The position numbers and the translations under genes were made by a program. The notes beneath the pieces were generated by a model that searched no databases, was not told the DNA's origin, and saw only the letters and a program-made list of their open reading frames with translations. A stretch of 48,648 nucleotides of DNA from Phocaeicola oris. Its GTDB lineage: Bacteria; Bacteroidota; Bacteroidia; Bacteroidales; Bacteroidaceae. The DNA is taken from NCBI RefSeq assembly GCF_021295095.1, contig NZ_JAJLQX010000023.1, positions 1 to 48,648 of the forward strand. The letters run 5' to 3'. This document shows positions 4,302 through 43,336 of this stretch, piece after piece (within the stretch, counting starts at the first letter, position 1; each line of letters opens with the position of its first letter).

Positions 4302-4445
4302 TCATGCGTATGAATGATTAAACTCATACGCATGAACCGACAAACTCATGCGGATGACTTGAGCAACTCATACGCATGAACCGTTCAACTCATACGCATC
4401 ATTTAGACAGATTAAATAGATCGCTTAAGCAATTCAAACGTTTGA
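4302..4445. repeat. 22-bp-phased palindrome array A
   Basis: Five 12-bp cores start at 4302, 4324, 4346, 4368 and 4390, exactly 22 bp apart: TCATGCGTATGA, TCATACGCATGA, TCATGCGGATGA, TCATACGCATGA and TCATACGCATCA. The 10-bp linkers are ATGATTAAAC, ACCGACAAAC, CTTGAGCAAC and ACCGTTCAAC. A decayed slot at 4412 is followed by a related palindrome, TCAAACGTTTGA, at 4434, still in 22-bp phase. The array fills the gap between two convergent genes. Function unknown. Confidence 0.85.
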
Positions 4446-4496
4446 CCCTATCTATTCAAACATATTGATTTGAGTATTAAAGGTTACTGACGATAA

Positions 4497-4528
4497 AAAG
4501 CTGTAGGAGAGCTTCTCTTACAGCTTTT
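4497..4528. terminator. Bidirectional hairpin terminator
   Basis: AAAAGCTGTA (4497-4506) pairs with TACAGCTTTT (4519-4528), with further GGAGAG/CTTCTC pairing towards the loop. A-rich and T-rich flanks suit both directions. It overlaps the stop codon of the DUF488 gene and also serves the convergent ECF S-component operon. Confidence 0.7.
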
Positions 4529-4886
4529 ATTTATTCAGGATCCAATCTCGGAGAATAAGCGCATGATTACAAGTCTCACTCTTCGCGCCATATAATAAAG
4601 TCACATTACCCTGTTTCAAAAGTTGCCGGCAATGCGCAATAAATTGCAATGCATCCTGATTACCATCCAACTCAGCACGATATTTTTGAGCAAATTCCGC
4701 ATAGTTTTCCTCCTTATGCCCGAACCATTTACGAAGGCTTGTTGTTGGTGTCACTTCCTTACGCCATTCATCAATTAAAGCTTTCTCTTTCGAAATTCCT
4801 CGAGGCCAAAGACGGTCTATCAGAATTCTATATCCGTCGCTTGCGTCAGCAGAAAGATAGACTCTTTTTATTCTTAATTCTCCCAT
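4527..4886 (-). CDS. DUF488 family protein (YeaO-like)
   Basis: This 119-residue protein has the family signature: 'RIKRVYLSADASDGYRILIDRLWPRGISKEKA' at about 5-36, 'WRKEVTPTTSLRKWFGH' at about 41-57, and 'NVTLLYGAKSETCNHALILRDWI' at the end. DUF488 proteins are small and cytoplasmic, of uncertain function. The gene is monocistronic and convergent with the ECF S-component gene. Confidence 0.85.
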   Translation of the reverse strand: MGELRIKRVYLSADASDGYRILIDRLWPRGISKEKALIDEWRKEVTPTTSLRKWFGHKEENYAEFAQKYRAELDGNQDALQFIAHCRQLLKQGNVTLLYGAKSETCNHALILRDWILNK

Positions 4887-5060
4887 AGTATTCTAACACC
4901 TTATCATAATAAACTATCCATTCTAATTTCTTTTCTCACCCAATCAACGTAATTCGACGACTAAATTAATAAGAAATAAATAAAAAAGAGCGAACCTCTT
5001 AAAATTTAACCAAATATTCTTCTCGTGAAATGGCACCTACAAATAAAGCAAAATAAAAAT

Positions 5061-5100
5061 AGAATTGTTCTTGGCAGAGCATTCCACTAAGAACAATTCT
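5061..5100 (-). terminator. Terminator of SusCD pair 1
   Basis: A perfect 12-bp stem, AGAATTGTTCTT (5061-5072) with AAGAACAATTCT (5089-5100), has a 16-nt loop and is followed on the minus strand by ATTTTTATTTT. It lies about 50 bp past the susD stop. The rest of the 4887-5152 gap shows no gene. Confidence 0.8.
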
Positions 5101-5152
5101 AATATCACAATTTCAATTTTACATCCAAGCTGTTTTCTTTACTACTTCTTCC

Positions 5153-6685
5153 CTATTTCAGAATCCACATAACTCCCATATAATCATCAGAGCCATTATA
5201 TTGCTCTTTTATCGCCTTTGTCACATTTTCCATATTATAGTTCAGCTCATCTATGGGATACATCCATCTCAACGGCATTTTGTCGGAAGGAATATTTCGA
5301 TTCGATTGAGGATTTATAACAAATTCAGGCACTCCGGTTCGCCGATACTCATAAAAGCCATTATAAGGAGTCTGCAAGAAAGTCAACAAATACTTCTGCC
5401 ATATAATTTGTCGGATTTGGTCATCCAAATTATCGGCAAAAGAAACCTTTTCACCTTTCAGATATTCTGCAACATATTCTTTTGTCATTTTTCTGTTATG
5501 ATGATAAACTGCATCATCAGGCGTATTCTCGGAGACAAACTGCATGGACGAACGAATACCTTCTTCATAGTAATCTTTGGCACTCTTTGGAATAAAACCT
5601 CTTGCTGCCGCTTCCGCCAAGATATAATTCATCTCCTGATAACTCAAGAAGAAGACCGGTTCACCTTCCGGAATTTCCTTATAGCGATCGTTCAACGGCG
5701 ATACATTTCCTTTACTAACATATTTCAATATATCTGATTCAGGTAACATCGGGTCAACACCTCCATACGCATCCCATGACGATACATCAACCTTGTTCGC
5801 AATAGCATTAGGTGTCGGCTTAGCATAATAGAATAAACGATAATCACCTAACTCTTTTAGCTTATCTACGACAATACTTGTTACACGATCATAATTTGTA
5901 AAGCTGTTAATCTCTTTATAATACGGATATTTCTGACCGCTCTTATTCGAATATACAACTTGGAAGTTATCATCGATCGACTCAAATATCGGACGTTCAT
6001 TAATTATCGTATTAAAACGCTCTTTAACTTTCAAATCCAAATCGTCTGTTTTCCTATACAAATTAATCAATAATTTTAATTGTAATACATTGACAGCCTT
6101 ACGCCATTTACTAACATCACCATTATAAATATAATCGCCTGCGAATGTCACTCCTTGAGCAAATAATCTATCCGCCTCATCCAACTCATTTAGTAATCCG
6201 AGAAAAATATCTTTCTGAGTATCATATTTAGGGAAATAATTTCCTTCTTCCCCTTCGATAGCTTCACTATAAGGCATGTCTCCCACTTTTATCGTAAGAT
6301 TAAAGAAAACATACGCTCTGATAAAATGGGACAAAGCCGTATAAGAATTCTTCAATTGATCAGTAGTAGCCATATCTATCATCTTAACTGCATTCCTTAA
6401 ATTGGCTAAGGTGCTATAGCTCGGTCTGCTTAATAAATTGAATGCCTTATCTATATCTTGAGCTTCTGTCCATGAGATATATTTAGATAGCAAATCTTCA
6501 AAAATAAAGCCTTTACCATTCTCATTATCCGTAGTTACAAGCTCGTTTATCAATTTCGTCGCCAACATAGCAGAGGTAACCTCCGGTGTGGTATTAGGAT
6601 TTGTATTAACTTCCTCAAAATCGTCACACCCTATCAATAGGAAAGAGGAAAAACAAATCAGTAATAAACAATATATCTTTTTCAT
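5153..6685 (-). CDS. SusD-like_2 family nutrient-binding outer-membrane lipoprotein (pair 1)
   Basis: This 510-residue protein begins with a lipoprotein signal peptide ending at the lipobox LLIGC (Cys20), followed by 'FEEVNTNPNTTPEVTSAML', typical of the SusD-like_2 branch. A C-terminal 'RRTGVPEFVINPQSNRNIPSDKMPLRWMYPIDE' segment supports this. It caps the SusC channel at the cell surface and captures the ligand. It lies 13 bp after susC on the same strand and ends before a strong terminator. The ligand cannot be inferred. It resembles the pair 4 SusD in its C-terminal RRTG...LPLRWMYP pattern. Confidence 0.93.
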   Translation of the reverse strand: MKKIYCLLLICFSSFLLIGCDDFEEVNTNPNTTPEVTSAMLATKLINELVTTDNENGKGFIFEDLLSKYISWTEAQDIDKAFNLLSRPSYSTLANLRNAVKMIDMATTDQLKNSYTALSHFIRAYVFFNLTIKVGDMPYSEAIEGEEGNYFPKYDTQKDIFLGLLNELDEADRLFAQGVTFAGDYIYNGDVSKWRKAVNVLQLKLLINLYRKTDDLDLKVKERFNTIINERPIFESIDDNFQVVYSNKSGQKYPYYKEINSFTNYDRVTSIVVDKLKELGDYRLFYYAKPTPNAIANKVDVSSWDAYGGVDPMLPESDILKYVSKGNVSPLNDRYKEIPEGEPVFFLSYQEMNYILAEAAARGFIPKSAKDYYEEGIRSSMQFVSENTPDDAVYHHNRKMTKEYVAEYLKGEKVSFADNLDDQIRQIIWQKYLLTFLQTPYNGFYEYRRTGVPEFVINPQSNRNIPSDKMPLRWMYPIDELNYNMENVTKAIKEQYNGSDDYMGVMWILK

Positions 6686-6698
6686 GTGTCATATCATA

Positions 6699-9600
6699 TT
6701 AAAATTCAACCTTCAGATTAAGTCCTACATATCTTATTGATGGAGAAGACAAGTTTTCATCCTCTACCCCTTCAAAGCCATCAGGATCAGAGAACCTGAA
6801 CTCTTTCGTAAGCACAAACAAATTCTGCCCAATCAAACCGGCATAACAACTCGACATTCCTAATTTCTTCACTAACTTTGTCGGAATATTATAACCTATA
6901 GACATTTCTCGAAGTTTTAAGAATGTTTTATCTTGTACCAATTTATCCGGATTGTTTCTACTTCCTCTTATAAAATCTTCGTACGAGACAACCATATCAT
7001 TGGGCGCAAAAACACGTGTATCGGAAGTAATCCGACCATATTGGTCGTATTTCACATCTCCTGATACAACTTTTACGCCTTCTGCCACATAAGTCTTCTT
7101 TTTATTAACCACTTCGTCATAACGATATTGATTATCAGTATCCGGATGTGCTCCTGTCTCATACATATAAAATTCTGTATTAGCCCACGACTTTCCACCT
7201 ATACGCCCATCAAAATTAAGCGTCAAAGTGAAATCTTTATATTTAAAAATATTCGCAACTCCATATTCTATATCAGGATCCGTATAACCGACTAAAGAAT
7301 TGTATTGGCTTCTCAACATTAAACCGTTACTCCCGATAATATAATTACCCTTTGAATCTTTTTCATATCCTCTATAAGAATAATAATCCGTACGCTTACC
7401 TACTTTTGTCCATAAATCGTCAGCACTGTATTCCTCATCGATCTTCGCAAAATATTGTTTGCTGTTCGATACGTTTAACGAAACATTCCAACTAAAATTT
7501 TTCAGTTGTACTGCCAATGCGTCTATAGTAAACTCAATACCCCTCCTGACATATTCTTCTTTAATGTTCATCAATCGGGAATTAAAACCTGATGCCGACG
7601 ATATGGTTTGTCTTCTGGTATTATTATACGTAAGCTTGTTGAAATAGCTAATATCTAATCTTATCCTGTTATTCTTCAAGAAATGTATATTTGTACCTAT
7701 TTCCCATGTTCGATTCGTTATCGGCTTTACATTTCCTCGTAAAGTATTCGGATAAGTTGCCATATTCAACCCGTCCCAAACACTTTGCGTAATGGAGTAC
7801 GACTGATTCAAATCATATATATCCAAGTCTTTTTTAGAAACAGTCCAAGAACCTCTTATTTTCCAGAAAGGCATCCATTCGGGCATACGAACTATTTCTG
7901 ACCCGATGATGCTGACACCAACCGATGGATAAAAGTAAGATTTCTCATCCGGGGGCAATGTCGAAGACCAGTCGTTTCGTCCTGTAGCCTCCAAATAATA
8001 TGTATCTCTATAACCTAATGTTAAAGTACCAAATAAGCTGTTCACTTTCTTTTTCTTAGCTTCACTGGAAACTGTCGGACTTTCTACAGAAGCCGCAATA
8101 GAATAAAATCCGGGAACCAATAAACCGTTCTTAGTCGCTGCCGTCAAAGAGCTTGATTTAGTGTAATATATAGACCCTCCAACCAATCCATCTATACTGA
8201 AATCTTTTATTTTCTTATTATACATAAGAAATAAATCATAATTAAGCGTAAGAGCAGTTCCTTTTGACTCCTGATAATAGCCTAAAGCTCCGTCTCGCCA
8301 TCCTCCGCGATTTTTAGAGATTGTACCAACTGAAGCCCGTCTCTTAGTCTCGTTAGAATACGCGACTCCTCCCGCACGCAATTGTAATCTTAAGCCGGGA
8401 ATAATCTGATACTTAAATGACAAAGAGCCATTAACAGAGAAATTATTGATTGCCCTTATCTTCTCATGTGCCTCGAAATAAGGATTATCGTACCAATCTG
8501 TATAATGCCAATTCTGTTTTTCATTTGGAATAAGCCAATAATCCTTATAGTCTTTTAGTCGGTACTCCGGACCTGTCCAAATCAATATATTATACATATA
8601 TCCTGTTCCATAGCCATAACCGGCAGTATTAGGAGCAGACTCCTGCGTGTAATTAAGACTTCCTTCTATATTGGCTTTTTCTCCCAACTTTAATTCTCCT
8701 CCAATATTATACCAGAATTTATTTTTCTTTGTATTAGGATACTGGTTTTTATCATACAAATAGGATAAAGATGTCCGAATAGTTCCATTTTTCCCTGAAG
8801 TAGAAACGCTCACTGTTGTGTTGCTAATCATACTGAATTCAAGAAAATCTTTAAAATTATTCTTTCCCCGCGAAGTAAGTTCCATATCACGGTATTCTTT
8901 ATTAATAGGATCCCATTGCCTGTATATGCGTCCTATATCCAACTTATCACCCCAAACATAATCGATGTTATCGAATACGCCCCCTGATCCGGCACTGTAT
9001 GACGTTTGTACCTTAGGGATTTTAAGCTGTCCAGCATTAATCATGTTACTTGTATTTACCTCGATGGTAAAACCTTTATTTCCTCCTTTCTTTGTCGTAA
9101 TCATTATTGCCCCGTCACCACCACGCGATCCATAAAGAGCAGAAGCAGTAGCACCTTTTAATACCGTAATCTCTTCTATCACATCTTGGTTAAAATCGCT
9201 AAAGGCCTGATTAGTCGGAATACCATCGACGACGACAAGCGGATTTGCACCACGTAATCGGATAGTTGGCGCATTATTAAACTCCGAAGAGTTATAAATA
9301 CGCAAACCGGAAATACGTCCTGTTAAACTCGTTGCGATATTCGCGCCTTTTACCTTATCAAGATTCTCTCCTTTAAATTTCTGCGTGGAATATCCCAAAG
9401 CTTTCTCAGAACGAGAGATTCCCAATGCTGTTACAACCACTTCATCCAGTGCTTCCGTGTCATCATTAAGGATTACAGATATAAGCTCTCCCTCTTTTGC
9501 TTGCACTTCTTTCGTTACATACCCAATATACGAAATAACCAACGTAACTGTCGACTTCTTTATAGTAATAGAAAAGTCTCCATTCGTATCGGTTACCGTA

Positions 9601-9815
9601 CCATTCGTAGTACCTTTCTCTAAAACATTGGCACCGATTATAGGCTCACCCAACGCATCCTTCACTGTACCGGTTACGTATCTTTGTTGCTGAGGAATAT
9701 TAACCTCCGTCAACGGCAAAGAATTCAATGCATATAATGCTTGATTCTGCGGTAAACCACAAAAGAGCATTAATCCAATACATACTCTAAGTAAATTCTT
9801 TCTTCGATTTTTCAT
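6699..9815 (-). CDS. SusC/RagA TonB-dependent outer-membrane transporter (pair 1)
   Basis: This 1038-residue protein has a signal peptide, a CarboxypepD_reg-like domain at about 46-120 (VTGTVKDALGEPIIGANVLEKGTTNGTVTD), the TonB-box region 'EALDEVVVTALGISRSEKALGYSTQ', a plug with 'VDGIP' and 'EEITVLKGATASALYGSRGGDGAIMITTKKG', and a C-terminal beta-barrel ending in Phe. It forms a ligand-gated import channel driven by TonB/ExbBD. It lacks the N-terminal STN signalling domain seen in pair 4. Long stretches (for example VPGFYS..., GRNDWSSTLP and FWKIR.SWTV.KKDL) parallel the pair 4 SusC, so the two are probably paralogs. Confidence 0.95.
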   Translation of the reverse strand: MKNRRKNLLRVCIGLMLFCGLPQNQALYALNSLPLTEVNIPQQQRYVTGTVKDALGEPIIGANVLEKGTTNGTVTDTNGDFSITIKKSTVTLVISYIGYVTKEVQAKEGELISVILNDDTEALDEVVVTALGISRSEKALGYSTQKFKGENLDKVKGANIATSLTGRISGLRIYNSSEFNNAPTIRLRGANPLVVVDGIPTNQAFSDFNQDVIEEITVLKGATASALYGSRGGDGAIMITTKKGGNKGFTIEVNTSNMINAGQLKIPKVQTSYSAGSGGVFDNIDYVWGDKLDIGRIYRQWDPINKEYRDMELTSRGKNNFKDFLEFSMISNTTVSVSTSGKNGTIRTSLSYLYDKNQYPNTKKNKFWYNIGGELKLGEKANIEGSLNYTQESAPNTAGYGYGTGYMYNILIWTGPEYRLKDYKDYWLIPNEKQNWHYTDWYDNPYFEAHEKIRAINNFSVNGSLSFKYQIIPGLRLQLRAGGVAYSNETKRRASVGTISKNRGGWRDGALGYYQESKGTALTLNYDLFLMYNKKIKDFSIDGLVGGSIYYTKSSSLTAATKNGLLVPGFYSIAASVESPTVSSEAKKKKVNSLFGTLTLGYRDTYYLEATGRNDWSSTLPPDEKSYFYPSVGVSIIGSEIVRMPEWMPFWKIRGSWTVSKKDLDIYDLNQSYSITQSVWDGLNMATYPNTLRGNVKPITNRTWEIGTNIHFLKNNRIRLDISYFNKLTYNNTRRQTISSASGFNSRLMNIKEEYVRRGIEFTIDALAVQLKNFSWNVSLNVSNSKQYFAKIDEEYSADDLWTKVGKRTDYYSYRGYEKDSKGNYIIGSNGLMLRSQYNSLVGYTDPDIEYGVANIFKYKDFTLTLNFDGRIGGKSWANTEFYMYETGAHPDTDNQYRYDEVVNKKKTYVAEGVKVVSGDVKYDQYGRITSDTRVFAPNDMVVSYEDFIRGSRNNPDKLVQDKTFLKLREMSIGYNIPTKLVKKLGMSSCYAGLIGQNLFVLTKEFRFSDPDGFEGVEDENLSSPSIRYVGLNLKVEF

Positions 9816-10120
9816 TTCATTTAATTAGATTATTTGGGTTAATAATAAAGGGACGCTAAAATTAAAACGCAAGAACATGTCCCTCTTATGTTCAAAAACT
9901 CTCTTTGCTGCTATTATAATAACATCACTTGTTATACAGGGTTCATAGTTAAATCTAAATAGAATGCAAATATTAACAGATAAACATTATGTCGCTGCCA
10001 ACAAAATTAATATTTTCTCGCAAAAAGCATAACAATATCCAAAGAATTTTCTAAAATAACGTGAGTCCGACGAATTTAATCAGCATGCAACTACCGAGTT
10101 GTATGTAAGAAGATAAAAAG
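9816..10120. other. Intergenic region upstream of SusC pair 1
   Basis: AT-rich DNA without a convincing ORF. It contains a probable minus-strand promoter element, TAATTTTG (10009 to 10002), which gives pair 1 a leader of about 180 nt. Array B begins at its right edge. Confidence 0.5.
10002..10009 (-). promoter_or_regulatory. -7 promoter element for SusCD pair 1 (TAATTTTG)
   Basis: CAAAATTA on the plus strand reads TAATTTTG on the minus strand, an exact TAnnTTTG match. No clear -33 TTTG is at the ideal spacing, so confidence is moderate. Confidence 0.4.
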
Positions 10121-10172
10121 AGATATGTATGAGTCGGACAGTTTATACGTATCACTTTTTTGATACTTATTT
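10121..10172. repeat. 22-bp-phased palindrome array B (short)
   Basis: Cores at 10121 (AGATATGTATGA) and 10143 (TTATACGTATCA) are 22 bp apart, followed by a weaker one at 10161 (TGATACTTATTT) after 18 bp. This is the collapsed counterpart of array C: flanking sequence matches on both sides, but three whole units present in C are missing. Confidence 0.75.
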
Positions 10173-10506
10173 ATGTCACTTTAAATTCATTAAATACATA
10201 TTATTTATTTGTATTGGAAAGTGGAAATATCTTGTTAGAAAGAAAACGATTAAAAATACAAATTTCATAAGGTTAGTATATGTAAAAGGCAACAGACGTA
10301 AACGCTGCCACACAGAATAGAATCGAGAGGTTAGAGCTTTAAAAAACAGATACCTCGGAGAAGACTTAACTTTCCGACGACAAAGAAGAAATCTTTCAAA
10401 TATTATTACCGATATTACACCTGTTAGTCGTCTCAACGATGTAACGAAAAAGGAATATTTATTGCATATTTCTCACTTTTTTCATTGCAAATCAGAAAAA
10501 ATAGTT

Positions 10507-10514
10507 TAATTTTG
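10507..10514 (+). promoter_or_regulatory. -7 promoter element for SusCD pair 2 (TAATTTTG)
   Basis: TAATTTTG matches TAnnTTTG and is retained in the duplicate copy at 19932-19939. Transcription starting near 10520 gives a leader of about 280 nt before the susC ATG. Confidence 0.6.
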
Positions 10515-10563
10515 CAGCGACATAATATAAAAAATCTAAAAAGACAACACATTAAAATATAAT

Positions 10564-10795
10564 ATGGGAGATCCTTATAATGTTAAAATAAATGCTTTCG
10601 GTACATTTTATAACTTTTGTTTATGAAAATTCTAAGCCTTTGAGGAAACCATATAGCAAGTTGATTGAATTGGTAAAAGCCACAAAAAACATCATCGGAA
10701 AACCCGAAAAGGATTTGGCAAATAATGAAATTGAATTAGAAACAAAAAATGACCTATTAGTAAGTTTAAAAAAGAAAATTTTATTATATAATTAA
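10564..10795 (+). pseudogene. Leader ORF remnants related to the DUF6261-like gene
   Basis: A 20-codon ORF (10564-10626, MGDPYNVKINAFGTFYNFCL) overlaps a second frame (10592-10795) whose tail, 'IIGKPEKDLANNEIELETK', matches the C-terminus of the truncated DUF6261-like protein at 20566-20931. The middle of that gene is missing here. The segment is best read as a deleted copy of the same leader gene, left in the 5' leader of susC. Expression as a peptide is unproven. Confidence 0.45.
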
Positions 10796-19479: not shown

Positions 19480-19597
19480 AGATACGTATGAGTCTGACGA
19501 TTCATCCGCATGAATTGCTCAAGTCATCCGTATGAGTTTGTCGATTCATCCGTATGAGTCGGACAGTTTATGCGTATCACTTTTCTGATACGTATTT
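19480..19597. repeat. 22-bp-phased palindrome array C
   Basis: Cores start at 19480, 19502, 19524, 19546 and 19568, each exactly 22 bp apart (AGATACGTATGA, TCATCCGCATGA, TCATCCGTATGA, TCATCCGTATGA, TTATGCGTATCA), then one at 19586 after 18 bp (TGATACGTATTT). Linkers such as ATTGCTCAAG and GTTTGTCGAT are near reverse complements of the array A linkers CTTGAGCAAC and ACCGACAAAC, so this array lies in the opposite orientation. Confidence 0.85.
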
Positions 19598-19960
19598 ATG
19601 TCATTTTAAATTCATTAAATACATATTATTTATTTGTATTGGAAAGTGGAAATATCTTGTTAGAAAGAAAACGATTAAAAATACAAATTTCATAAGGTTA
19701 GTATATGTAAAAGGCAACAGACGTAAACGCTGCCACACAGAATAGAATCGAGAGGTTAGAGCTTTAAAAAACAGATACCTCGGAGATGACTTAACTTTTC
19801 GACGACAAAGAAGAAATCTTTCAAATATTATTACCAACATTACACCTGTTAGTTGGCTCTACAATGTAACGAAAAAGGAATATTTATTGCATATTTCTCA
19901 CTTTTTTCATTGCAAATCAGAAAAAATAGTTTAATTTTGCATTAGTATAATATAAAAAAT
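19546..19960 (+). repeat. Duplicated upstream region, copy 2 (partner near 10121-10535)
   Basis: This is the second copy of the region in front of SusC pair 2, with only scattered substitutions, and ends just past the shared promoter TAATTTTG (19932-19939). It is non-coding by my reading. Homology continues, in degraded form, into the leader. Confidence 0.8.
19932..19939 (+). promoter_or_regulatory. -7 promoter element for SusCD pair 3 (TAATTTTG)
   Basis: An exact TAnnTTTG match, conserved in position with 10507-10514. The transcript would have a leader of about 1 kb holding a repeat and a small gene before susC, unless other promoters exist nearer. Confidence 0.55.
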
Positions 19961-20297
19961 CTGAAAAAACAATACATTAACATGTAACATGAAAGATTTA
20001 CAATGTTAAAATAAATGCTTTCTGTACATTTTATAACTTTTGTTTATGAAGAATTATAAGCCTTAGAGGAAGTCATACAGCAAGTTAGTTGAATTGCTAA
20101 AAGCCACAAAAAAACACCATCGGAAAATCCGAAAAGGAGAAATATTGCTCAATCTAAAAGGCAGTAAATAGAAAGGCTGTTTTCATGTTCCTCACGGCAT
20201 GGATCAAGTTTGGGAAAACGTTGAAAAAAAGCGAATAAATCTGTATAAGCCAAAAGAAAAGGCTACAGAAGCAATAAATCATGTCAAGATGTCAGTT

Positions 20298-20540
20298 TGA
20301 GCGATCGGGATGTGAAAAAAAATATTTTTATAACATCACAAAGCCTTGGGATGAGATAATAGAACAGAATAAAACATCTCAAGGGATTGGGAAGAGATAA
20401 TAAATAGTTTTTTGTCCTCCCAAGGGATTGGGACAAGAAAAAAAGAAACAAAATGTCAGCCCAAGGAATTGGGAAAGGATAATAACTAAAAATCCAACGT
20501 CCGGAGGACTTAGGATAGCCGAGATTGAATGAATTATATA
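20298..20540 (+). repeat. Degenerate 41-bp tandem repeat, six units
   Basis: The anchor TTGGGA (or TCGGGA, TTAGGA) recurs at 20305, 20346, 20387, 20428, 20469 and 20510, exactly 41 bp apart each time. The better conserved part of a unit is CAAGGGATTGGGA followed by AGATAATA; the rest varies. Since 41 is not a multiple of 3, it is not a coding repeat. It lies between a decayed leader-gene fragment and the DUF6261-like ORF. Function unknown. Confidence 0.8.
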
Positions 20541-27093: not shown

Positions 27094-28446
27094 ATGACTT
27101 ATTTCAAAAGACATATAGACGACAAATTGCTCGAGTGGAAAAACGAAGCTCGACGCAAGCCATTGCTGATACGGGGTGCTCGTCAGGTGGGCAAGTCCAC
27201 TGCCGTAAGAGAACTCGGAAAGCAATTCCGCTACTTTGTGGAGGTGAACCTTGAAAAGCAACCCGACCTGCGGCAGCTGTTCACAGAGAACATCAACGTG
27301 AAGAGTACGTGCGAGAAACTCAGCGGTACGCTTGCCATACCCATCATACCGGGCGAGACGCTCCTCTTCATCGACGAAATTCAGGTAAGCAAGGAGGCTG
27401 TCATGGCGCTGCGCTACTTCAAGGAGGACTATCCCGAATTACACGTCATTGCCGCAGGCTCGCTGCTGGAGTTTGCCTTGGAAGAACTGCCGTCGTTTGG
27501 TGTGGGAAGGATACGTTCGCTGTATATGTACCCGTTCTCGTTCGACGAATTTCTCATGGCTCAGGGGCTCGGACTCACCGTTGATTTCAAACGGAAGGCA
27601 ACGGCCGATGCTCCTCTTACGGAATCGGCACACAAAGCCTTGATAGAACAGCTGCGCTCGTTCTATCTTGTAGGTGGAATGCCGGCAGCCGTGACGGAAT
27701 GGGTGGAAACACATAGTTATATAGAGGTGTCGCATATCCACAATGAAATTATCGACACATACAGCGACGACTTTTCCAAGTACAAGAAACGGTTTTCACC
27801 TGTTCTCCTCAGGCAGGTGCTACGTTCGACGGCATTGCAGGCAGGAAAGAAATTCGTTTATGCCACAGCCGCACGCGACACGAAATCCACACTGGTGAAG
27901 GAAGCCCTGCACCTGCTCACGCTTGCCGGGCTTGTAACCCCCGTGAAGCATACGGACGCACATGGCATCCCACTCGGAGCAGAGGAAAATGAAAGTTACG
28001 TGAAATATCTTTTCTTTGACTTGGGTGTCATGCAGACCATGCTCAATATTCCTGCGGGAGACATTCTCATGGCAACCGAGGTGGATTTTGTGAACAAGGG
28101 AGGTGCGTCCGAGATGTTTGCCGGATTGGAGATGATGAAATACGGCGACTGCTTTATGAAACCCGACCTGCATTACTGGCAGAATCATGTCAGGAACAGT
28201 CAGGCGGAAGTGGATTACCTCAAAGTAAGCAACGGCAAGATACTTCCCATAGAGGTTAAAGCCAGCACGCAAGGGAGCATGCAGAGCCTTTGGATTTTCA
28301 TGCGTGAATGCAAGCTCTTCGATGGTATCCGCACATCACTTGAGAATTTCGGTCATCTTTCTTACTATGACAAGCAGGATGACAATGCCGAACGACACGT
28401 AAATATCGTACCATTGTATGCCTTGAGCAACTTATTTCGTCCATAA
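27094..28446 (+). CDS. AAA_14/DUF4143 ATP-binding protein, copy 1
   Basis: This 450-residue protein (from the ATG after the promoter) has a Walker A motif RGARQVGKST at about 27-36, Walker B 'ETLLFIDEIQ' near 93, and 'AAGSLLEFALEE' sensor-like segment, together the AAA_14 domain. The C-terminal DUF4143 domain contains 'QAEVDYLKVSNGKILPIEVKAS', a PD-(D/E)XK-like nuclease-fold motif. The family is widespread in Bacteroidetes and archaea with no settled function; roles in defence or toxin-like behaviour have been proposed. Base composition by eye is more GC-rich than the flanking susCD genes, suggesting transfer. A related copy follows directly. Confidence 0.85.
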   Translation: MTYFKRHIDDKLLEWKNEARRKPLLIRGARQVGKSTAVRELGKQFRYFVEVNLEKQPDLRQLFTENINVKSTCEKLSGTLAIPIIPGETLLFIDEIQVSKEAVMALRYFKEDYPELHVIAAGSLLEFALEELPSFGVGRIRSLYMYPFSFDEFLMAQGLGLTVDFKRKATADAPLTESAHKALIEQLRSFYLVGGMPAAVTEWVETHSYIEVSHIHNEIIDTYSDDFSKYKKRFSPVLLRQVLRSTALQAGKKFVYATAARDTKSTLVKEALHLLTLAGLVTPVKHTDAHGIPLGAEENESYVKYLFFDLGVMQTMLNIPAGDILMATEVDFVNKGGASEMFAGLEMMKYGDCFMKPDLHYWQNHVRNSQAEVDYLKVSNGKILPIEVKASTQGSMQSLWIFMRECKLFDGIRTSLENFGHLSYYDKQDDNAERHVNIVPLYALSNLFRP

Positions 28447-28525
28447 AAGTGTAGTAATTTGCCAAAAGTTCGTCAATAAAAATGTGGCAATTTCTTTGAA
28501 GTTCGGCAAGAAAAGTGTATTTTTG
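28445..28525 (+). repeat. Three 33-bp repeats overlapping the promoter of ATPase 2
   Basis: AAAAGTGT-like motifs recur at 28445, 28478 and 28511, exactly 33 bp apart, with AATTTG/AATTTC and AAGTTCG(T/G)C shared between units. The first begins in the stop codon of ATPase 1 and the last contains the -7 box TATTTTTG (28518-28525), with a TTTG at 28495-28498 (19-bp spacer). On the minus strand the same DNA encodes an 11-residue repeat (KYTFLAELQRN, CHIFIDELLAN, YYTFMDE). Confidence 0.7.
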
Positions 28526-36777: not shown

Positions 36778-36892
36778 GACTTTCTATTGGAAGAATGGTT
36801 ACGTTCATATTAAATTTTCCAACTATACTCATAGTTCATCATTTAAGGTAACTTAAAAGCATAGATAAAGACATGCAGAAGAACACACCAAG

Positions 36893-36992
36893 TGATACGG
36901 ATGAACGCTTAAAATGATACGGACGAACCGACAAACTCATCCGCATGAATCAAGCAACTCATCCGTATCATTTTGCCAACTCATACGTATGA
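36893..36992. repeat. 22-bp-phased palindrome array D
   Basis: Cores start at 36893, 36915, 36937, 36959 and 36981, each 22 bp apart: TGATACGGATGA, TGATACGGACGA, TCATCCGCATGA, TCATCCGTATCA, TCATACGTATGA. The first is the exact reverse complement of the fourth. Linkers include ACCGACAAAC, identical to one in arrays A and E. The array lies upstream of the sigma factor gene, beyond its promoter. Confidence 0.85.
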
Positions 36993-37458: not shown

Positions 37459-37490
37459 AAGTGACAAGCGAAAGATTTCATTTGTCACTT
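37459..37490 (-). terminator. Terminator of tRNA-Pro
   Basis: AAGTGACAA (37459-37467) pairs with TTGTCACTT (37482-37490); on the minus strand the stem is followed by TTTTTATTTT, 5 bp past the tRNA 3' end. Confidence 0.8.
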
Positions 37491-37494
37491 TGTG

Positions 37495-37567: not shown

Positions 37568-37571
37568 AAAC

Positions 37572-37685
37572 TAAAACGCGGATGCAAAGGTAATCCATTT
37601 TTTTGAAGAAGAAAAGATTTATGAGTTTTTTTTCAAATTAATTGTTGGAATTGAAAAAAGTTTCTATCTTTGCATCCGCGTTTTA
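37572..37685. promoter_or_regulatory. Divergent tRNA promoters forming an 18-bp inverted repeat
   Basis: CTTTGCATCCGCGTTTTA (37668-37685) is perfectly inverted at 37572-37589. Each copy includes the end of a -7 box: TATCTTTG (37665-37672) for tRNA-Phe and TACCTTTG on the minus strand (37592 to 37585) for tRNA-Pro. The downstream TTTGCAnCCGCG segment is probably a shared tRNA leader/initiation sequence. Confidence 0.7.
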
Positions 37686-37698
37686 CAAGAAATGCCAT

Positions 37699-37771
37699 GG
37701 TGCCTTAGCTCAGGTGGTAGAGCAATGGACTGAAAATCCATGTGTCCCCGGTTCAACTCCTGGAGGCACCA
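37699..37771 (+). tRNA. tRNA-Phe (anticodon GAA)
   Basis: The 73-nt cloverleaf has acceptor GGTGCCT/AGGCACC, anticodon stem ATGGA/TCCAT with loop CTGAAAA (GAA), T-loop GTTCAACTC region and discriminator A. CCA is not encoded. A strong terminator follows within 12 bp. Confidence 0.96.
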
Positions 37772-37782
37772 CAAAAGATAAA

Positions 37783-37816
37783 AAACAGGCGGATGAAAGT
37801 CCGCCTGTTTTTTATC
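37783..37816 (+). terminator. Terminator of tRNA-Phe
   Basis: AAACAGGCGGA (37783-37793) pairs with TCCGCCTGTTT (37800-37810) around TGAAAG, followed by TTTAT. Confidence 0.92.
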
Positions 37817-37985
37817 CCTATACTTGAGATACATACAAAATATCTTTAAATGATATTAGTTTATTGTGGGAATAATATTCCAAAGAGAAATAAAAGTATT
37901 CCCTTTCGGAACAGCCATACCGTTTAAAACTATTATAACAATTGCTATATTTCTAAAATAACTTGTTGAATAATTCTAAACCTTT

Positions 37986-37993
37986 TAACTTTG
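37986..37993 (+). promoter_or_regulatory. -7 promoter element for cysK (TAACTTTG)
   Basis: An exact TAnnTTTG box with a TTG about 17 bp upstream (37966-37968), 34 bp before the cysK ATG. Confidence 0.6.
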
Positions 37994-38027
37994 TAACAGA
38001 AATTTAAAGGTAATAATAGTATAGATT

Positions 38028-38963
38028 ATGGCAAGGATTTATCACAATCTGACAGATTTAGTTGGACACACTCCATTGGTAGAACTCTCCAACATTGAGA
38101 AAGAGTTAAACCTTAAAGCAAAAGTGATAGTTAAAGTTGAATCTTTTAATCCGGGAGGCAGTGTTAAAGACCGCATTGCATTAGCAATGATTAACGACGC
38201 AGAAGAAAAAGGTCTGTTAAAACCGGGAGCCACTATCATAGAACCTACCAGCGGAAATACCGGTATAGGACTCGCATGGGTTGCATCAGTAAAAGGTTAC
38301 AAACTCATTCTCACCATGCCGGAAACCATGAGTATAGAACGTCAGAATTTATTGAAAGCTCTTGGAGCAACATTAATCCTTACTCCCGGAAGCGAAGGAA
38401 TGAAAGGTGCTATCCGTAAAGCAAACGAACTGAAAGAGGAAACTCCGGGAGCCTTTATCCCACAACAGTTCGAGAATCCGGCCAATCCTGCGGCTCATCT
38501 CAAAACGACAGCTGAAGAAATCTGGCAAGATACCGACGGAAAAATTGATTACTTTGTCGCGGGAGTAGGAACAGGCGGAACACTAAGTGGTACTGCCGAA
38601 GGATTAAAAAAGCATAATCCGAAAATTAAAGCCTTTGCTGTAGAACCGGACGGTTCGCCGGTCTTATCAGGTGGTCAGGCTGGACCGCACAAAATTCAAG
38701 GTATCGGAGCCGGTTTTGTCCCTAAAAACTTTCATTCGGATGTAGTTGATCAAATAGTCAAAGTAAAAGATGATGATGCCATCCGCACATCTCGTATGCT
38801 TGCTCAGAAAGAAGGTTTATTGGTTGGTATATCTTCGGGCGCCGCTGCTTTTGCTGCCATTGAATTAGCCAAGAAAACGGAGAACGAAGGAAAGACAATC
38901 ATTGCTCTACTTCCTGATACAGGTGAACGCTATTTGTCGACAGTTCTCTATGCTTTCGAATAA
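38028..38963 (+). CDS. cysK: Cysteine synthase A (O-acetylserine sulfhydrylase)
   Basis: This 311-residue PLP enzyme makes cysteine from O-acetylserine and sulfide in the cytoplasm. The PLP lysine is in NPGGSVKDR (Lys47), the substrate loop is TSGNTG at 74-79, and the phosphate-binding loop '[10 protein letters not shown]' lies near 178. The C-terminal '[15 protein letters not shown]' and '[11 protein letters not shown]' are typical of CysK rather than CysM or cystathionine beta-synthase. It is monocistronic with its own promoter and terminator. A methionine-pathway sulfhydrylase lies 660 bp downstream, so two sulfide-fixing enzymes sit close together. Confidence 0.97.
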
Positions 38964-39000
38964 TATCCTTTATAATAAAGGCATAACATAAGAAACAAAA

Positions 39001-39039
39001 AAACAACCTTTACCGTTATAGCAACGACAAAGGTTGTTT
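39001..39039. terminator. Terminator between cysK and the thioesterase gene
   Basis: AAACAACCTTT (39001-39011) pairs with AAAGGTTGTTT (39029-39039), with A/T-rich flanks on both sides. It can serve both convergent genes. Confidence 0.8.
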
Positions 39040-39066
39040 TCGTTTTGATACCTTTTTATAATTAGA

Positions 39067-39519
39067 TTACTCCAAACCCTTTTCAAGTTCCTCTAAAGTA
39101 CGGCCTTCATATTTGCAAATAGCTTCTTTATTCTCATCGGGAATAGGAACCGGACGTAATTTCTTTACATCATAAGCAACCATCACCGAACGAGATTCGC
39201 AACGCACCTCATTGGTATCTTCATTGATAGCACGCTGAAGAAGGGTAAAACTTTTATGTCCCAAATGAACACAAGCAGTTTCTATGACAATTCTATCAGA
39301 GAAAAACATTGGTTTAAAAAAATTAGCATTGATATTCGCGACAACAATTGCCATCTTCTTCCAGTCGGCATGTCCCAATACATCGCTGATATAAGTAGTC
39401 TTGGCTAAATCATATAAAGAGAAGTAAACAGAATTATTTACATGTCCAAACTGATCGACATCGCTAAAACGCAACTGCACAGGCATGGTATGCCTGAATC
39501 TTATCTCTCCCATTTTCAT
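39067..39519 (-). CDS. Acyl-CoA thioesterase of the 4-hydroxybenzoyl-CoA/YbgC hotdog family
   Basis: This 150-residue protein has the hotdog-fold motif 'VQLRFSDVDQFGHVNNSVYFSLYDLAKTTYI' at about 14-44, with the catalytic Asp in D-Q-F-G-H-V-N-N. The remainder ('VVANINANFFKPMFFSDRIVIET' and 'ESRSVMVAYD') fits the family. It hydrolyses an acyl-CoA or similar thioester; the acyl group is not evident. An alternative start two codons in (MGEIRF) is possible. It is divergent from the metY gene, with promoters back to back. Confidence 0.9.
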   Translation of the reverse strand: MKMGEIRFRHTMPVQLRFSDVDQFGHVNNSVYFSLYDLAKTTYISDVLGHADWKKMAIVVANINANFFKPMFFSDRIVIETACVHLGHKSFTLLQRAINEDTNEVRCESRSVMVAYDVKKLRPVPIPDENKEAICKYEGRTLEELEKGLE

Positions 39520-39530
39520 TTAATTTATTG

Positions 39531-39588
39531 CAAAAATAAATAGATTTCCGCAGATGAAGAACAAAATAAAAGATTATTATTAATTTTG
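39531..39588. promoter_or_regulatory. Back-to-back promoters of the thioesterase and metY genes
   Basis: CAAAAATA (39531-39538) reads TATTTTTG on the minus strand for the thioesterase, 12 bp from its ATG. TAATTTTG (39581-39588) serves metY, 34 bp before its ATG. Both match TAnnTTTG. Confidence 0.6.
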
Positions 39589-39621
39589 TAGCGTATAACA
39601 TTAGATTATTAAACTCACATT

Positions 39622-40908
39622 ATGACAAAGATATTTAAACCCGCTACCATCTGCGTGCAAGGCGGGTGGAAACCCCAAAAAGGTGAACCTCGCGTTCTTC
39701 CTATTTATCAAAGTACGACATTCAAATACGATAATAGTGAGCAAATGGCTCGATTGTTCGACTTGAAAGATGAGGGATATTTCTATTCCCGTCTACAAAA
39801 TCCGACAAACGATTGTGTCGCTTCTAAGATTGCACAATTGGAAGGCGGTGTTGGAGCAATTCTCACTTCTTCCGGACAAGCTGCCAATTTCTATGCTATC
39901 TTCAATATTTGTGAAGCAGGTGATCACATTGTATGTTCTTCAACTATATACGGCGGTACATTCAATTTATTTGGCGTCACCATAAAAAAATTAGGTATTG
40001 ATTGTACATTCATTGATGCCGACGCTCCCGAGGAAGAGATAGATAAAGCCTTTAAACCAAATACAAAAGCAATGTTCGGTGAGACTTTGGCCAATCCAAG
40101 TATGGATGTGCTGGATATAGAGAAGTTCGCGAAGATTGCGCATAAACATGGAGTCCCTCTGATTGTTGACAATACATTCGCGACTCCTATCAACTGTCGT
40201 CCATTCGATTGGGGGGCTGATATAGTAACACACTCAACAACCAAATATATGGAAGGACATGCCTCAACTGTTGGGGGAGCAGTGGTTGACAGCGGAAATT
40301 TTGATTGGGACGCACACGCTGACAAATTCCCTGGACTTACCCTGCCAGACCCTTCATATCACGGACTGGCATATACAAAAGCTTTCGGGAAGAATGCATA
40401 CATCACCAAAATGACAGCCCAGTTGATGCGTGACCTCGGGTCTATTCAATCCCCTCAAAACGCATTCTATCTGAACTTGGGACTGGAAACACTCCATCTC
40501 CGTATGTTACGCCATTGTGAGAATGCACAAAAAGTAGCAGAATGGTTGGAAACAAACCCAATGGTTAAATGGGTTCACTATCCGGGACTGAAAAGTGACA
40601 AGTACTATAAGTTAGCACAGAAATACATGCCTCATGGAACCTGTGGAGTGATAGCTTTCGGCATTAAAGGAAGCCGCGAAGATGCTATTAAGTTTATGGA
40701 CGCGTTAAAGATGATCTGTATCGTTACTCATGTAGCCGATGCCAGAACATGTGTACTCCATCCGGCAAGTCATACCCATCGCCAATTAAGCGATGAACAG
40801 TTGTTGGAGGCTGGTGTAGCACCCGATTTGATTCGTTTGTCTGTTGGTATTGAAGACGCGGAAGACATCATCAACGACTTAGATCAGGCAATGAAGAAGG
40901 TGAAATAA
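39622..40908 (+). CDS. metY: O-acetylhomoserine aminocarboxypropyltransferase (sulfhydrylase)
   Basis: This 428-residue PLP enzyme makes homocysteine directly from O-acetylhomoserine and sulfide. Motifs include 'PIYQSTTFKYD' at 28-37, 'YFYSRLQNPTNDCVASKIAQLEGG', 'VDNTFATPINCRPFDWGADIVTHSTTKYMEGH' with the PLP lysine Lys208, and 'RLSVGIEDAEDIINDLDQAM' at the end. The length and the Cys/Met-metabolism PLP signature support MetY rather than MetB or MetC. The M48 protease gene follows 29 bp later, so they may be cotranscribed. Confidence 0.95.
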   Translation: MTKIFKPATICVQGGWKPQKGEPRVLPIYQSTTFKYDNSEQMARLFDLKDEGYFYSRLQNPTNDCVASKIAQLEGGVGAILTSSGQAANFYAIFNICEAGDHIVCSSTIYGGTFNLFGVTIKKLGIDCTFIDADAPEEEIDKAFKPNTKAMFGETLANPSMDVLDIEKFAKIAHKHGVPLIVDNTFATPINCRPFDWGADIVTHSTTKYMEGHASTVGGAVVDSGNFDWDAHADKFPGLTLPDPSYHGLAYTKAFGKNAYITKMTAQLMRDLGSIQSPQNAFYLNLGLETLHLRMLRHCENAQKVAEWLETNPMVKWVHYPGLKSDKYYKLAQKYMPHGTCGVIAFGIKGSREDAIKFMDALKMICIVTHVADARTCVLHPASHTHRQLSDEQLLEAGVAPDLIRLSVGIEDAEDIINDLDQAMKKVK

Positions 40909-40937
40909 ACAATATTCAAAATCAAAGGGTATCGGCT

Positions 40938-41846
40938 ATGAAAAAGATTTTAGGATTATGTATGCTTACCGCGCTTCTTTACGGATGTAGCAGTGTGCCT
41001 ATTACAGGCAGAAAGCGATTAATGTTAGTTTCTAATTCTGAAGTACTGTCATCATCACTGACTGAGTATTCAAATTATATGAAAACTGCTAAGGTTTCGA
41101 CAAACACTGCCGGAAAAGCAATGGTTACACGGGTAGGGAAGAGAATTGCAACGGCAACAGAGCAGTATCTGAGAAATAACGGGATGTCAAAAGAAATTAA
41201 AGATTTCGCTTGGGAATTCAATTTGGTCAACAGTTCTGAAGTAAACGCATTCTGTATGCCGGGAGGTAAGATTGTAGTATACGAAGGTTTGCTCCCTTTG
41301 GTTAGTAATGATGATGATTTAGCCGTTGTATTAGGACATGAGGTTGCCCATGCCGTTGCAAAACATAGTAATGAGCGAATGAGTCAACAAATCGCCGCAG
41401 AATATGGCGCTACCATCTTAGACGCGACATTAAGCAATTCTTCTGCAATTGTCCAAGGATTGGGCAGTATGGTTTATGGATTAGGTGCACAGTATGGTGT
41501 GATGCTGCCATTTTCACGCAAACATGAGTCGGAAGCCGACTATATGGGACTCATCCTGATGACGATGGCGGGATACAATCCAAACAATGCCGTCACATTC
41601 TGGGAGAAAATGTCAGCTAATGGAAAAGGGAATGCGCCACAGTTCTTGAGTACCCACCCAAGCGATGCCTCTCGTATAAAATCTATTCAGAAACATCTCC
41701 CTGAAATGAGCAAATATCGCCCGACAGGAGCCGGTTGGAAAGTCTCAACAACTAAAGATACTACAACTAAAAAGACTACCCAATCAACCAAGTCAATAAA
41801 CGTAAATTCCATCAAAACTACAACTACTCCAAAAAGAAATAACTAA
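40938..41846 (+). CDS. M48 family zinc metalloprotease, lipoprotein
   Basis: This 302-residue protein has a lipobox LLYGC (Cys17), then 'VPITGRKRLMLVS', a conserved start of periplasmic/outer-membrane M48 (LoiP/YcaL-like) proteases. The zinc site is VLGHEVAHAVAKH (His134, Glu135, His138) with third ligand Glu197 in HESEADYMG. A C-terminal Thr/Lys-rich tail (about 265-302) is low complexity. It probably degrades misassembled envelope proteins. The DUF4252 gene starts 3 bp after its stop, indicating coupling. Confidence 0.94.
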   Translation: MKKILGLCMLTALLYGCSSVPITGRKRLMLVSNSEVLSSSLTEYSNYMKTAKVSTNTAGKAMVTRVGKRIATATEQYLRNNGMSKEIKDFAWEFNLVNSSEVNAFCMPGGKIVVYEGLLPLVSNDDDLAVVLGHEVAHAVAKHSNERMSQQIAAEYGATILDATLSNSSAIVQGLGSMVYGLGAQYGVMLPFSRKHESEADYMGLILMTMAGYNPNNAVTFWEKMSANGKGNAPQFLSTHPSDASRIKSIQKHLPEMSKYRPTGAGWKVSTTKDTTTKKTTQSTKSINVNSIKTTTTPKRNN

Positions 41847-41849
41847 GAA

Positions 41850-42320
41850 ATGAAAGAACTTCTCCTCTCTCTGCTCTTTACATTGGCTGTGCAATGCTGC
41901 TCCGCTCAAAGTATTGACACTCTTTTTGATGAGTTCAAAGACGCGGAAGGCGCTCAATATGTAGAGATGCCTGCTTATGTTATTGCATTAGGAAAAGCTG
42001 TAGCCGGTCAGCAGAGTCAAGACATCAACGGTATTAAAATGATGGATGGGTTAAAGGCCATGCGACTCATTTCATTCCGTGACTGCCCTACTTCTGTAAG
42101 GAACCTGTTCGCACAACGTTCTAAAAACGTTTCCGGCTTTTCTGAGCTGAGCAGCATTAACAGAGACAGTACACAAACCCGTATACTTGGAAAAGGTGAG
42201 GGGGAAAACTTCAGCGATGTGGCTATCATTGTCACCGGAGACAAAGATACCAACCTTATTCACATGACAGGAAAGTTCTCTAAAGAAGAGCTGAACAAAA
42301 GTCTGGATATGAACAAATAA
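41850..42320 (+). CDS. DUF4252 domain-containing secreted protein
   Basis: This 156-residue protein has a signal peptide ending near CCSAQ-S, then 'IDTLFDEFKDAEGAQYVEMPAYVIALGKAV', which fits DUF4252 proteins of Bacteroidetes. No enzyme motif is visible. The start overlaps the end of the M48 gene by context (3-bp gap), so the two are translated together. Function unknown; possibly an envelope partner of the protease. Confidence 0.78.
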   Translation: MKELLLSLLFTLAVQCCSAQSIDTLFDEFKDAEGAQYVEMPAYVIALGKAVAGQQSQDINGIKMMDGLKAMRLISFRDCPTSVRNLFAQRSKNVSGFSELSSINRDSTQTRILGKGEGENFSDVAIIVTGDKDTNLIHMTGKFSKEELNKSLDMNK

Positions 42321-42369
42321 TTTTAACTGTTACTTACTTCTCCATGCCAATCATCGGCATAGCCTGATT

Positions 42370-43035
42370 TTATCTCCTTCGTATTTCAATAGAAAAATCA
42401 TGCGGCGCGGTAACTGCTCCATTGCTCTCTATCGCATAAATACGGAATTGAGCCATGCCATCACGCAATCGTTTATCCGCACGAATAGTCATCGTATAAC
42501 GAATTTGATTTCCTTGTGGCATATAAGAAATCGGACGTGACGGAGAAAACTTCAAATGCTTATTCTTATTTAATTCTTTGATCACCGGAACAATATTATA
42601 TGATGGAGAATTCCCTACGTTCACAATATCAAAAACTATCTTTGCCGACTCTCCTGCCTCAATAGCCTGATTACGACTGTCATCTATGAACCGGATATTA
42701 CGAATCTCTAAATTCGATTCATTATTCACATAGCCATTCTCATCAGAATAAATATCATCATAGCCCTGTTCTGTTTTCTCCTGATAATCCCCTTCATTTT
42801 GCTTATCCTTTGGAGGAGTAGACACCGCATTCCCAATGGCAGCGCCTGCCACCGTACCAATTAACGAACCAAACTGCGACCCGCGCCAACCGTCGGCATT
42901 ATCTCCTATGATAGAGCCCAATACTCCGCCAATAGACGCACCGGCAGAAACCGCGGCGGGACTACCTGTCATTGTTCCATAGCATGATGACATCAATACT
43001 GCCAAAACAAAGAAAGACAACACACCTTTTTTCAT
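42370..43035 (-). CDS. Glycine-zipper lipoprotein
   Basis: This 221-residue protein has a lipobox VLMSSC (Cys18) and a glycine-zipper segment, 'AGASIGGVLGSIIGDNADGWRGSQFGSLIGTVAGAAIGNAVS', at about 31-72, which can insert into membranes or oligomerise. The C-terminal half (about 110-221) looks like an immunoglobulin-like beta domain (NIRFIDDSRNQAIEAGESAKIVFDIVNVGNSPSYNIVPVI). It may act in the outer membrane. Convergent with the DUF4252 gene. Promoter TACCTTTG lies 30 bp upstream. Confidence 0.8.
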   Translation of the reverse strand: MKKGVLSFFVLAVLMSSCYGTMTGSPAAVSAGASIGGVLGSIIGDNADGWRGSQFGSLIGTVAGAAIGNAVSTPPKDKQNEGDYQEKTEQGYDDIYSDENGYVNNESNLEIRNIRFIDDSRNQAIEAGESAKIVFDIVNVGNSPSYNIVPVIKELNKNKHLKFSPSRPISYMPQGNQIRYTMTIRADKRLRDGMAQFRIYAIESNGAVTAPHDFSIEIRRR

Positions 43036-43064
43036 ACTGCTTCTGTTTTATTCATTGCCAACAA

Positions 43065-43072
43065 CAAAGGTA
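43065..43072 (-). promoter_or_regulatory. -7 promoter element for the glycine-zipper gene (TACCTTTG)
   Basis: CAAAGGTA on the plus strand reads TACCTTTG on the minus strand, an exact TAnnTTTG match, 30 bp from the ATG. Confidence 0.6.
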
Positions 43073-43214
43073 CATGTTTCTATGTTAGTTTAACATTTTA
43101 TTTGGTTAAATATTAATATAAGAGGAAATAATTACCGCAAATAGACAAATAATAAAGGTGAGTTTAATGAAGCATCAGTATCTCTCAACTTAACGATTTG
43201 ATCAAAACATTTTA

Positions 43215-43336
43215 TCATAAAAGAGACTTTAGAAAGTCATACGTATAAACTGAGAAAGTCATCCGCATGAACCAACAAACTCATCCGCATGAACCGACAA
43301 ACTCATCCGCGTCACTTTTCACACTCATACGTATCA
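43215..43336. repeat. 22-bp-phased palindrome array E
   Basis: Cores start at 43237, 43259, 43281, 43303 and 43325, each 22 bp apart: TCATACGTATAA, TCATCCGCATGA, TCATCCGCATGA, TCATCCGCGTCA, TCATACGTATCA. A half-core, TCATAAAAGAGA, lies one more step upstream at 43215. Linkers are ACTGAGAAAG, ACCAACAAAC, ACCGACAAAC and CTTTTCACAC. The array sits between two divergent genes; the remainder of the 43036-43504 gap shows only their promoters. Confidence 0.85.

Follow-up and report, generated by a model that had tools for sequence, protein, structure and literature searches.

Among known elements, the arrays analysed here most closely resemble BrickBuilt, a Porphyromonas gingivalis MITE that carries a minisatellite. 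It is described as an intergenic MITE made of a leader, a tail and, between the two, a tandem repeat whose unit spans about two helical turns, and as a multi-copy element of limited host range (PMC4596501); the arrays and their family, as shown below, resemble it in each of these respects. MITEs also derive from IS982-type elements. MITECca01 of Cardinium comes from the IS982-family element ISCca4 and, like the MITEs here, is IS982-derived and mostly intergenic (PMC9769881). Elements of the IS982 family have 5'-AC ends, and target duplications of 7 bp for IS1187 and 8 bp for IS195 are given (PMC7335449). IS195 is the former ISPg3 (PMC5771137) and was placed in the IS982 family (PMC7335449); the paper on the MITEs of P. 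gingivalis assigned ISPg3 to IS5 (PMC4596501).

In the 48,648-nt stretch of DNA analysed here (the window), 12-bp palindromic cores recur in arrays with a period of 22 bp. We propose, with a probability of about 0.72, that these arrays are internal blocks of short non-coding MITEs derived from an IS982 element, and that their cores are kept as putative sites for a dimeric protein.

We searched the window for the core TCATNCGNATGA with at most one mismatch. There were 19 matches, compared with 2.4 expected, and none of 100 shuffles reached 19. When pairs of cores (at least 9/10 of the core) lying 13 to 60 bp apart were counted, 10 pairs were found at 22 bp, 8 at 44 bp and none at any other distance, whereas 20 local shuffles of the window gave no pair at 22 bp. 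A strict 22-bp phase had been claimed in a sequence-only reading of this DNA, and these counts confirm it. That reading had listed five sites; those at 4302, 19480, 36893 and 43237 do carry arrays, whereas the one at 10121 consists of two decayed units (Table 1). Its claim that the phase persists through decayed units was correct for the palindrome at 4434, which is in phase, but TCATAAAAGAGA at 43215 is more likely the conserved beginning of the putative element tail (the reverse complement of CTCTTTATGA) than a decayed unit.

Table 1. Arrays and associated features in the window
Feature	Positions	Strand	Description
Array 1	4302..4445	-	four cores perfect and another at 9/10; unit at 4412 lost; TCAAACGTTTGA, a related palindrome, at 4434
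Terminal-repeat-like ACGTGAGTCCGACGAATTT	10059..10077	+	some 60 bp to the left of array 2
Array 2	10121..10154	+	two decayed units, 7/10 and 8/10
Segment starting inside array 2	10127..10713	+	93% identical (589 aligned bases) to 19552-20138
Array 3	19480..19579	+	five units: three perfect between two 8/10 ends, AGATACGTATGA and TTATGCGTATCA
Array 4	36871..36992	-	five units and a decayed unit at 36871; end GTGATACGGATGA
Putative tail of the MITE of array 5	43153..43236	-	CTCTTTTATGA and decayed terminal repeat ATGCTTCATTAAACTCACCTTTA; read by eye
Array 5	43237..43336	-	five units, scores 9, 10, 10, 8, 9
Leader of the MITE holding array 5	43338..43434	-	homologous to the right end of an IS982-family element

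The strand of arrays 1 and 4 was set by spacer polarity, GTTG being read on the minus strand. No leader or tail was detected when both were sought at array 1. To the left of array 2, CGTGAGTTCGACGAATTC corresponds with 2 mismatches to positions 10060-10077, and a weak profile match was obtained at 10061-10079 (E 0.023) in one of four rounds; the right flank of array 2 matches that of array 3 at the identity given in Table 1. The five units of array 4 that begin at 36893 scored 9, 8, 10, 9 and 10. Array 5 keeps its leader and probably both MITE ends. Its leader was recovered with an E-value of 8.6e-12 by a leave-one-out profile and of 8.1e-12 by a profile whose recruitment excluded both the window and the IS, and the value of 2.4e-17 was given by a profile that contained this same leader. 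The end of its putative tail agreed with the tail terminal repeat at 15/23 positions, and neither a tail-profile hit nor a target duplication was found for the region 43153..43236.

The five window sites make up only a minor share of the family. In the genome assembly (2.98 Mb, 50 contigs), 162 exact core pairs separated by a 10-bp spacer were counted, and the reversed control had none; allowing spacers of 6-14 bp still gave 162 pairs. In a sample of stretches that were partly picked for holding arrays, and that covered contigs C11 and C22 almost whole, we identified 67 array chains, including weak ones and at least one that is likely false (L097:18933, within an ORF). Merging the chains of one element left 65 arrays; model R1 was built from the 54 chains with three good units. 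Contigs C11 and C22 (about 551 kb) carried 24 and 14 arrays that had a gene class or overlapped an ORF, and extrapolation from these two contigs suggests a genome total of about 200 arrays, weak ones included.

The family is mostly intergenic, as had been claimed: 55 of the 65 arrays lay between genes, 6 overlapped an ORF of at least 90 aa, and 4 lay at stretch ends outside the classes. The count per intergenic class, which the sequence-only reading had proposed, gave 16 arrays in convergent gaps (10.7 expected by length), 9 in divergent gaps (17.0) and 30 in tandem gaps (27.2; chi-square p 0.036). Such mild avoidance of divergent gaps, where promoters lie, is more in keeping with the landing of mobile elements than with operators. 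Those flanking genes of the window arrays that were scanned (DUF488, SusC/D-type, DHDPS, sigma-70-type and MutS-like) are unrelated, which upholds the view that no single regulon is involved. The SusC/D-type genes, like the homologous arrays described below, indicate Bacteroidota.

Comparison of the flanks of the arrays revealed a common leader, which begins ACGTGAGTTCGACGAATTC, and a common tail. The terminal repeat of the MITE is ACGTGAGTTCGA, and about 95 bp are homologous to the right end of an IS982-family IS from the same genome. With small changes, the terminal repeat recurs at both ends of this IS; ACGTGAGTTCGAYGAATT is present there and at the left end of the young MITEs, and ACGTGAATTCGATGAA is present at the other MITE end. 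Several copies of both IS ends were located at the ends of contigs, as expected if the IS copies broke the assembly; no full-length copy of the parent IS was found in the genome assembly. A transposase fragment beside the left end of the IS matched the NCBIfam IS982 model at 7.8e-7, a partial match below the family cut-off, and an intact relative in the same genome matched it at 3e-65; a second fragment (L103) had no NCBIfam match. By blastn, the leader of one copy shared 76% identity with the right end of the IS across 84 bp, and that of another copy 90% across 40 bp. Used alone, the 100-bp leader of a young copy recovered the IS right end in seven copies located at contig ends (E 7.1e-6). 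Since the first leader profile included the window leader, and its seeds came from a model that also included IS copies, it was rebuilt without both; the result held with weaker E-values, and the profile recruited without the IS and the window found the seven IS right ends at 2.2e-15 over about 95 bp. One of the 19 seed leaders (L085) was not recovered once it was left out of the profile.

A leader, a tail or both were recognised in 24 of the 67 chains (9 with both, 6 with the leader only and 9 with the tail only), and the search found neither in the other 43. The arrays had been taken for a stand-alone element; this has to be revised, because at least one third of them form the inner part of IS982-derived MITEs. 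Five young copies are 382, 404, 425, 426 and 448 bp long. These lengths correspond to 2, 3, 4 (425/426 bp) and 5 TCAC units, so that the copies differ by steps of 22 bp, plus or minus one base. They start with AC and end with GT, apart from one that ends with AT. Target duplications of 7 bp flank these five youngest copies; three of the duplications are perfect and two contain one mismatch. Among 12 further copies, a 6-bp duplication with one mismatch was found in 3 and none in 9. By their ends and duplications, the young copies clearly look as if they moved as IS982-type elements. In line with the young copies carrying no transposase gene, the ORF list of L104, the copy inspected, has no ORF of at least 60 aa that overlaps positions 2084-2508. 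At one locus the front part of the IS is fused to the interior of a MITE. An autonomous transposon with the AAAGTGAT half-unit at its ends was also considered and rejected: among the 100 places listed out of 135, facing pairs lay 40-128 bp apart, none of them at IS length.

The youngest MITEs carry another kind of array, TCAC-N4-GTGA, whose period is 22 bp, as in TCAT-N4-ATGA. In the window, 40 genome stretches and five additional MITE loci, we counted 4-N4-4 palindromes with the same arms 13-40 bp apart, and 114 of 124 pairs were at exactly 22 bp (79 with TCAT arms, 31 with TCAC and 4 with three other arms). Two array kinds thus share one 22-bp period, and therefore the geometry is more constant than the sequence. 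In units beside a perfect core the palindrome is strongly conserved, most weakly at positions 2 and 11 (C/G exchange). The spacer consensus is GTTGATCGAT, in which GTT alone is well conserved; spacers of 10 bp with a common GTTG..C pattern, rather than unique spacers of repeat length, exclude a CRISPR array. The ends of the arrays are often unlike the inner units; one end then reads AAAGTGATNCGNATGA and the opposite end TCATNCGNATCACTTT. The unit bears a weak likeness to the terminal repeat of the IS (p 0.012-0.014); this was the best of four repeats tried, and we set it aside as support.

We then turned to other genomes. That the arrays would be conserved in relatives proved partly wrong within the genus: the exact core pair was found in none of 59 relatives (35 of them congeners), and a sequence profile with stricter filters, which can lose weak matches, gave matches in 2 of 60 other congeners. 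The same profile matched 5 other genomes in a sample of 395 genomes from the phylum. The family is rare outside this genome. Several of the profile-matched genomes share the 12+10 grammar, with some spacers such as gttgagtaac. A scan of named genomes gave at least 46 matching stretches; among those listed, 44 came from records with Bacteroidota titles (16 of them from RGIG7311), one from Nocardia and one from Spirochaetia. In 14 other genomes picked for having a pair, all listed spacers were 10 bp, though 6-14 bp were allowed.

Arrays were examined further in two Bacteroidaceae genomes, RGIG7311 and RGIG4240. All 17 complete arrays examined there have four units between TTA and TAA; they come from 18 loci, all found through the exact pair, with L061 excluded because the locus edge cuts its array. 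An exact-pair search of 60 relatives of RGIG7311 found RGIG4240 and one other only. The two genomes share two orthologous loci. One is identical over all 78 bases, with surroundings at 92%; at the other, the cores agree at 47/48 positions and the spacers at 22/30, with surroundings at 78% over 1579 bp (Fisher p 0.0016 for cores versus spacers in this one informative pair). No IS982-type ends were recognised at these informative arrays. The difference in this one pair points to selection on the cores, whose simplest role would be that of protein-binding sites. This single pair, from two other species, makes a binding protein, as the sequence-only reading had envisaged, plausible, since its cores were conserved more strongly than both spacers and flanks.

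These data suggest the following mechanism. An IS982 transposase would move the MITEs in trans, slippage or unequal exchange would alter the number of units, and the arrays without recognisable ends would be relics. The transposase and unit-number steps are proposed because ends, duplications and length steps were seen. With less certainty, the cores would outlast leader, tail and spacer, each 12-bp TCAY-N4-RTGA being a putative site for a dimeric protein; this binding step is put forward because of constraint alone. A period of 22 bp, about two helical turns, would set the putative sites on one face of the DNA, and the candidate binder may be the transposase, a chromosomal protein of the host or a regulator. 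We also entertain, tentatively and with more doubt than confidence, a broader version in which TCAY-N4-RTGA at 22 bp is a phylum-wide code, borne by unrelated short elements, independent of its carrier and read by a conserved array-binding protein of Bacteroidota, which the MITEs exploit or spread. Several results weigh against the main explanation: end decay has to be assumed for the 43 chains that have neither leader nor tail, most of the further copies (9/12) have no target duplication and the other three have imperfect ones of 6 bp, the parent IS has no full-length copy in the assembly and L103 no NCBIfam match, the seed leader L085 was lost in the leave-one-out test, core constraint comes from one informative orthologous pair in other genomes where no IS982-type ends were recognised, the likeness of unit and terminal repeat is weak, and the family is rare elsewhere.

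The alternatives differ from this explanation chiefly on function and overlap with it on the carrier. The arrays could be free-standing grids of dimer sites for a nucleoid or regulatory protein, maintained by the cell, with the MITE as one carrier or a latecomer. Such grids would fit the conservation of cores over spacers and flanks at the one orthologous site in two species, the TTA...TAA borders of four-unit arrays in 17 of the 17 complete arrays examined, the recurrence of the 12+10 geometry in other Bacteroidota and the many chains without MITE ends. We nevertheless consider them unlikely, because the young copies clearly look moved as IS982-type elements and because nearly all congeners searched are without arrays, an ill fit to an essential chromosome function. 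It is likewise improbable that the arrays are a neutral minisatellite, the period and core of which would be the chance content of master copies that underwent slippage and recent spread, with no binding function. Spacer identity of 0.64 within arrays versus 0.59 between arrays would fit a few such masters, unit number changes in whole steps, and the mild depletion of divergent gaps fits harmless landing sites. However, one MITE family carries two array sequences of equal period, cores and spacers are conserved unequally in the orthologous pair, and the information is uneven along the 22-bp unit.

An element acting at the RNA level, with tandem hairpins or a bidirectional terminator formed from the AAAGTGAT...ATCACTTT ends, could be suspected from the outer ends of the arrays, which are inverted and in many cases followed by T runs, and from the somewhat enriched convergent sites (16 versus 10.7 expected). 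But complementarity was depleted, both at the two variable core positions (10 of 136 units versus 40.8 in shuffles) and between neighbouring units (9 of 71 versus 24.1), with founder effects possible, and the end units of 15 elements showed no covariation (4/15 and 3/15 versus 6.0 and 5.1). Rfam at gathering scores gave two tRNAs in the window and nothing else. On the tests of variable positions and end units we rejected RNA structure, and we regard any RNA-level element as very unlikely. REP/BIME elements consist, as here, of many intergenic palindromic units in mosaic arrays, and their unit and geometry differ from those described here. High copy number, palindromic units, a mostly intergenic location and mosaic structure would agree with repeats of that kind moved by a RAYT-type (Y1) transposase. 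The visible ends are of IS982 type, however, and Y1_Tnp (PF01797) had no match in this genome, whereas 5 of 14 control genomes were positive; the reading fails on this search, and we assign it next to no probability.

If the cores are bound, one MITE family would have sown perhaps two hundred phased platforms between the genes of one species, and the chromosome would be rewired or packaged in a manner not shared by most of the relatives searched. The arrays also offer a test object, with a fixed geometry, two core sequences of the same period and natural copies that differ in unit number.

The sequence-only reading knew of no described element of this form. This holds for the unit itself: a 22-bp TCAT-N4-ATGA unit was not named in the literature on repeats and IS982, judged by titles and abstract openings, and the 7 papers that contain one of four core 12-mers do not, by their titles, deal with bacterial repeats. 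It does not hold for the architecture, because minisatellite-bearing MITEs are known in BrickBuilt (PMC4596501). The arrays are not members of that family. The BrickBuilt repeat is 23 nt (AGAYCATARTATCCTCTCRTRTG) and unrelated in sequence to the 22-bp units here, and its terminal repeats, GAGACC..., are given as IS5-like, whereas the ends here are ACGTGAG and of IS982 type; BrickBuilt has 19 copies in one strain (PMC4596501), and there are more here, with 162 exact core pairs. MITECca01 still has its intact parent IS; it is about 240 bp long, and the word "tandem" is absent from the text of the paper (PMC9769881). In P. gingivalis, the "236 and 700-type" MITEs (cf. MITE239/MITE700) seemingly acquired no mini- or microsatellites, unlike the MITEs here (PMC4596501). 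The ends, on the other hand, are close to those of P. gingivalis elements: MITE239 begins ACGTGAGTTCGA, identical at 12/12 bases to the terminal repeat found here, and ISPg3 begins ACGTCAGTTCGA, identical at 11/12 (PMC4596501). The arrays connect the IS982 family with minisatellite MITEs such as those of P. gingivalis.

Array 2 and array 3, two of the window's intergenic arrays of TCAT-N-CG-N-ATGA cores, have right flanks that are 93% identical over 589 aligned bases, and SusC/D-type genes lie near these segments. The boundary of homology falls within the array, as though arrays had acted as exchange points. These segments and the other located features are listed in the table.

Coordinates of the similar flanks, other window features and IS982-family pieces
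Sequence	Positions	Strand	Feature
Window	10127-10713		right flank, array 2
Window	19552-20138		right flank, array 3
Window	20330-20480		several CCCAAGGGATTGGGA-like motif copies, 5' of a short ORF as well as a SusC-type gene
Window	28436-28519		33-bp tandem repeat, 2.5 copies, overlapping an ORF end
Window	43505-45307		MutS-like gene (MutS_V, MutS_III), neighbour of array 5
L102	1150-1880	-	hybrid of IS982-family element and MITE
L103	2707-3741		IS982-type left end and fragment

In the L102 hybrid, the front part of the IS982-family element is joined to the interior of a MITE (one of the short non-coding elements that hold arrays) with TCAC units, and each end bears a terminal repeat. The L103 fragment is overlapped by another transposase gene (DUF4372 and DDE_Tnp_1) on the opposite strand.

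In other genomes, the array core was present at a Nocardia locus (L033) and a Spirochaetia locus (L058) with mixed steps of 22, 23 and 24 bp, and these two loci are probably unrelated. At loci of RGIG7311, another Bacteroidaceae genome, including L035, L039 and L045, the arrays are flanked by inverted GGTGAATTA/TAATTCACC-like motifs and also by AAGCACT/AGTGCTT inverted motifs, which are perhaps the ends of a different carrier element. At four loci of the congener G029 (L144, L178, L182 and L188), a lone TCATGCGGATGA-like core adjoins a hairpin of the CTACCCATAG...CTATGGGTAG type followed by T runs; these repeats are a terminator-like family, kin to the arrays.
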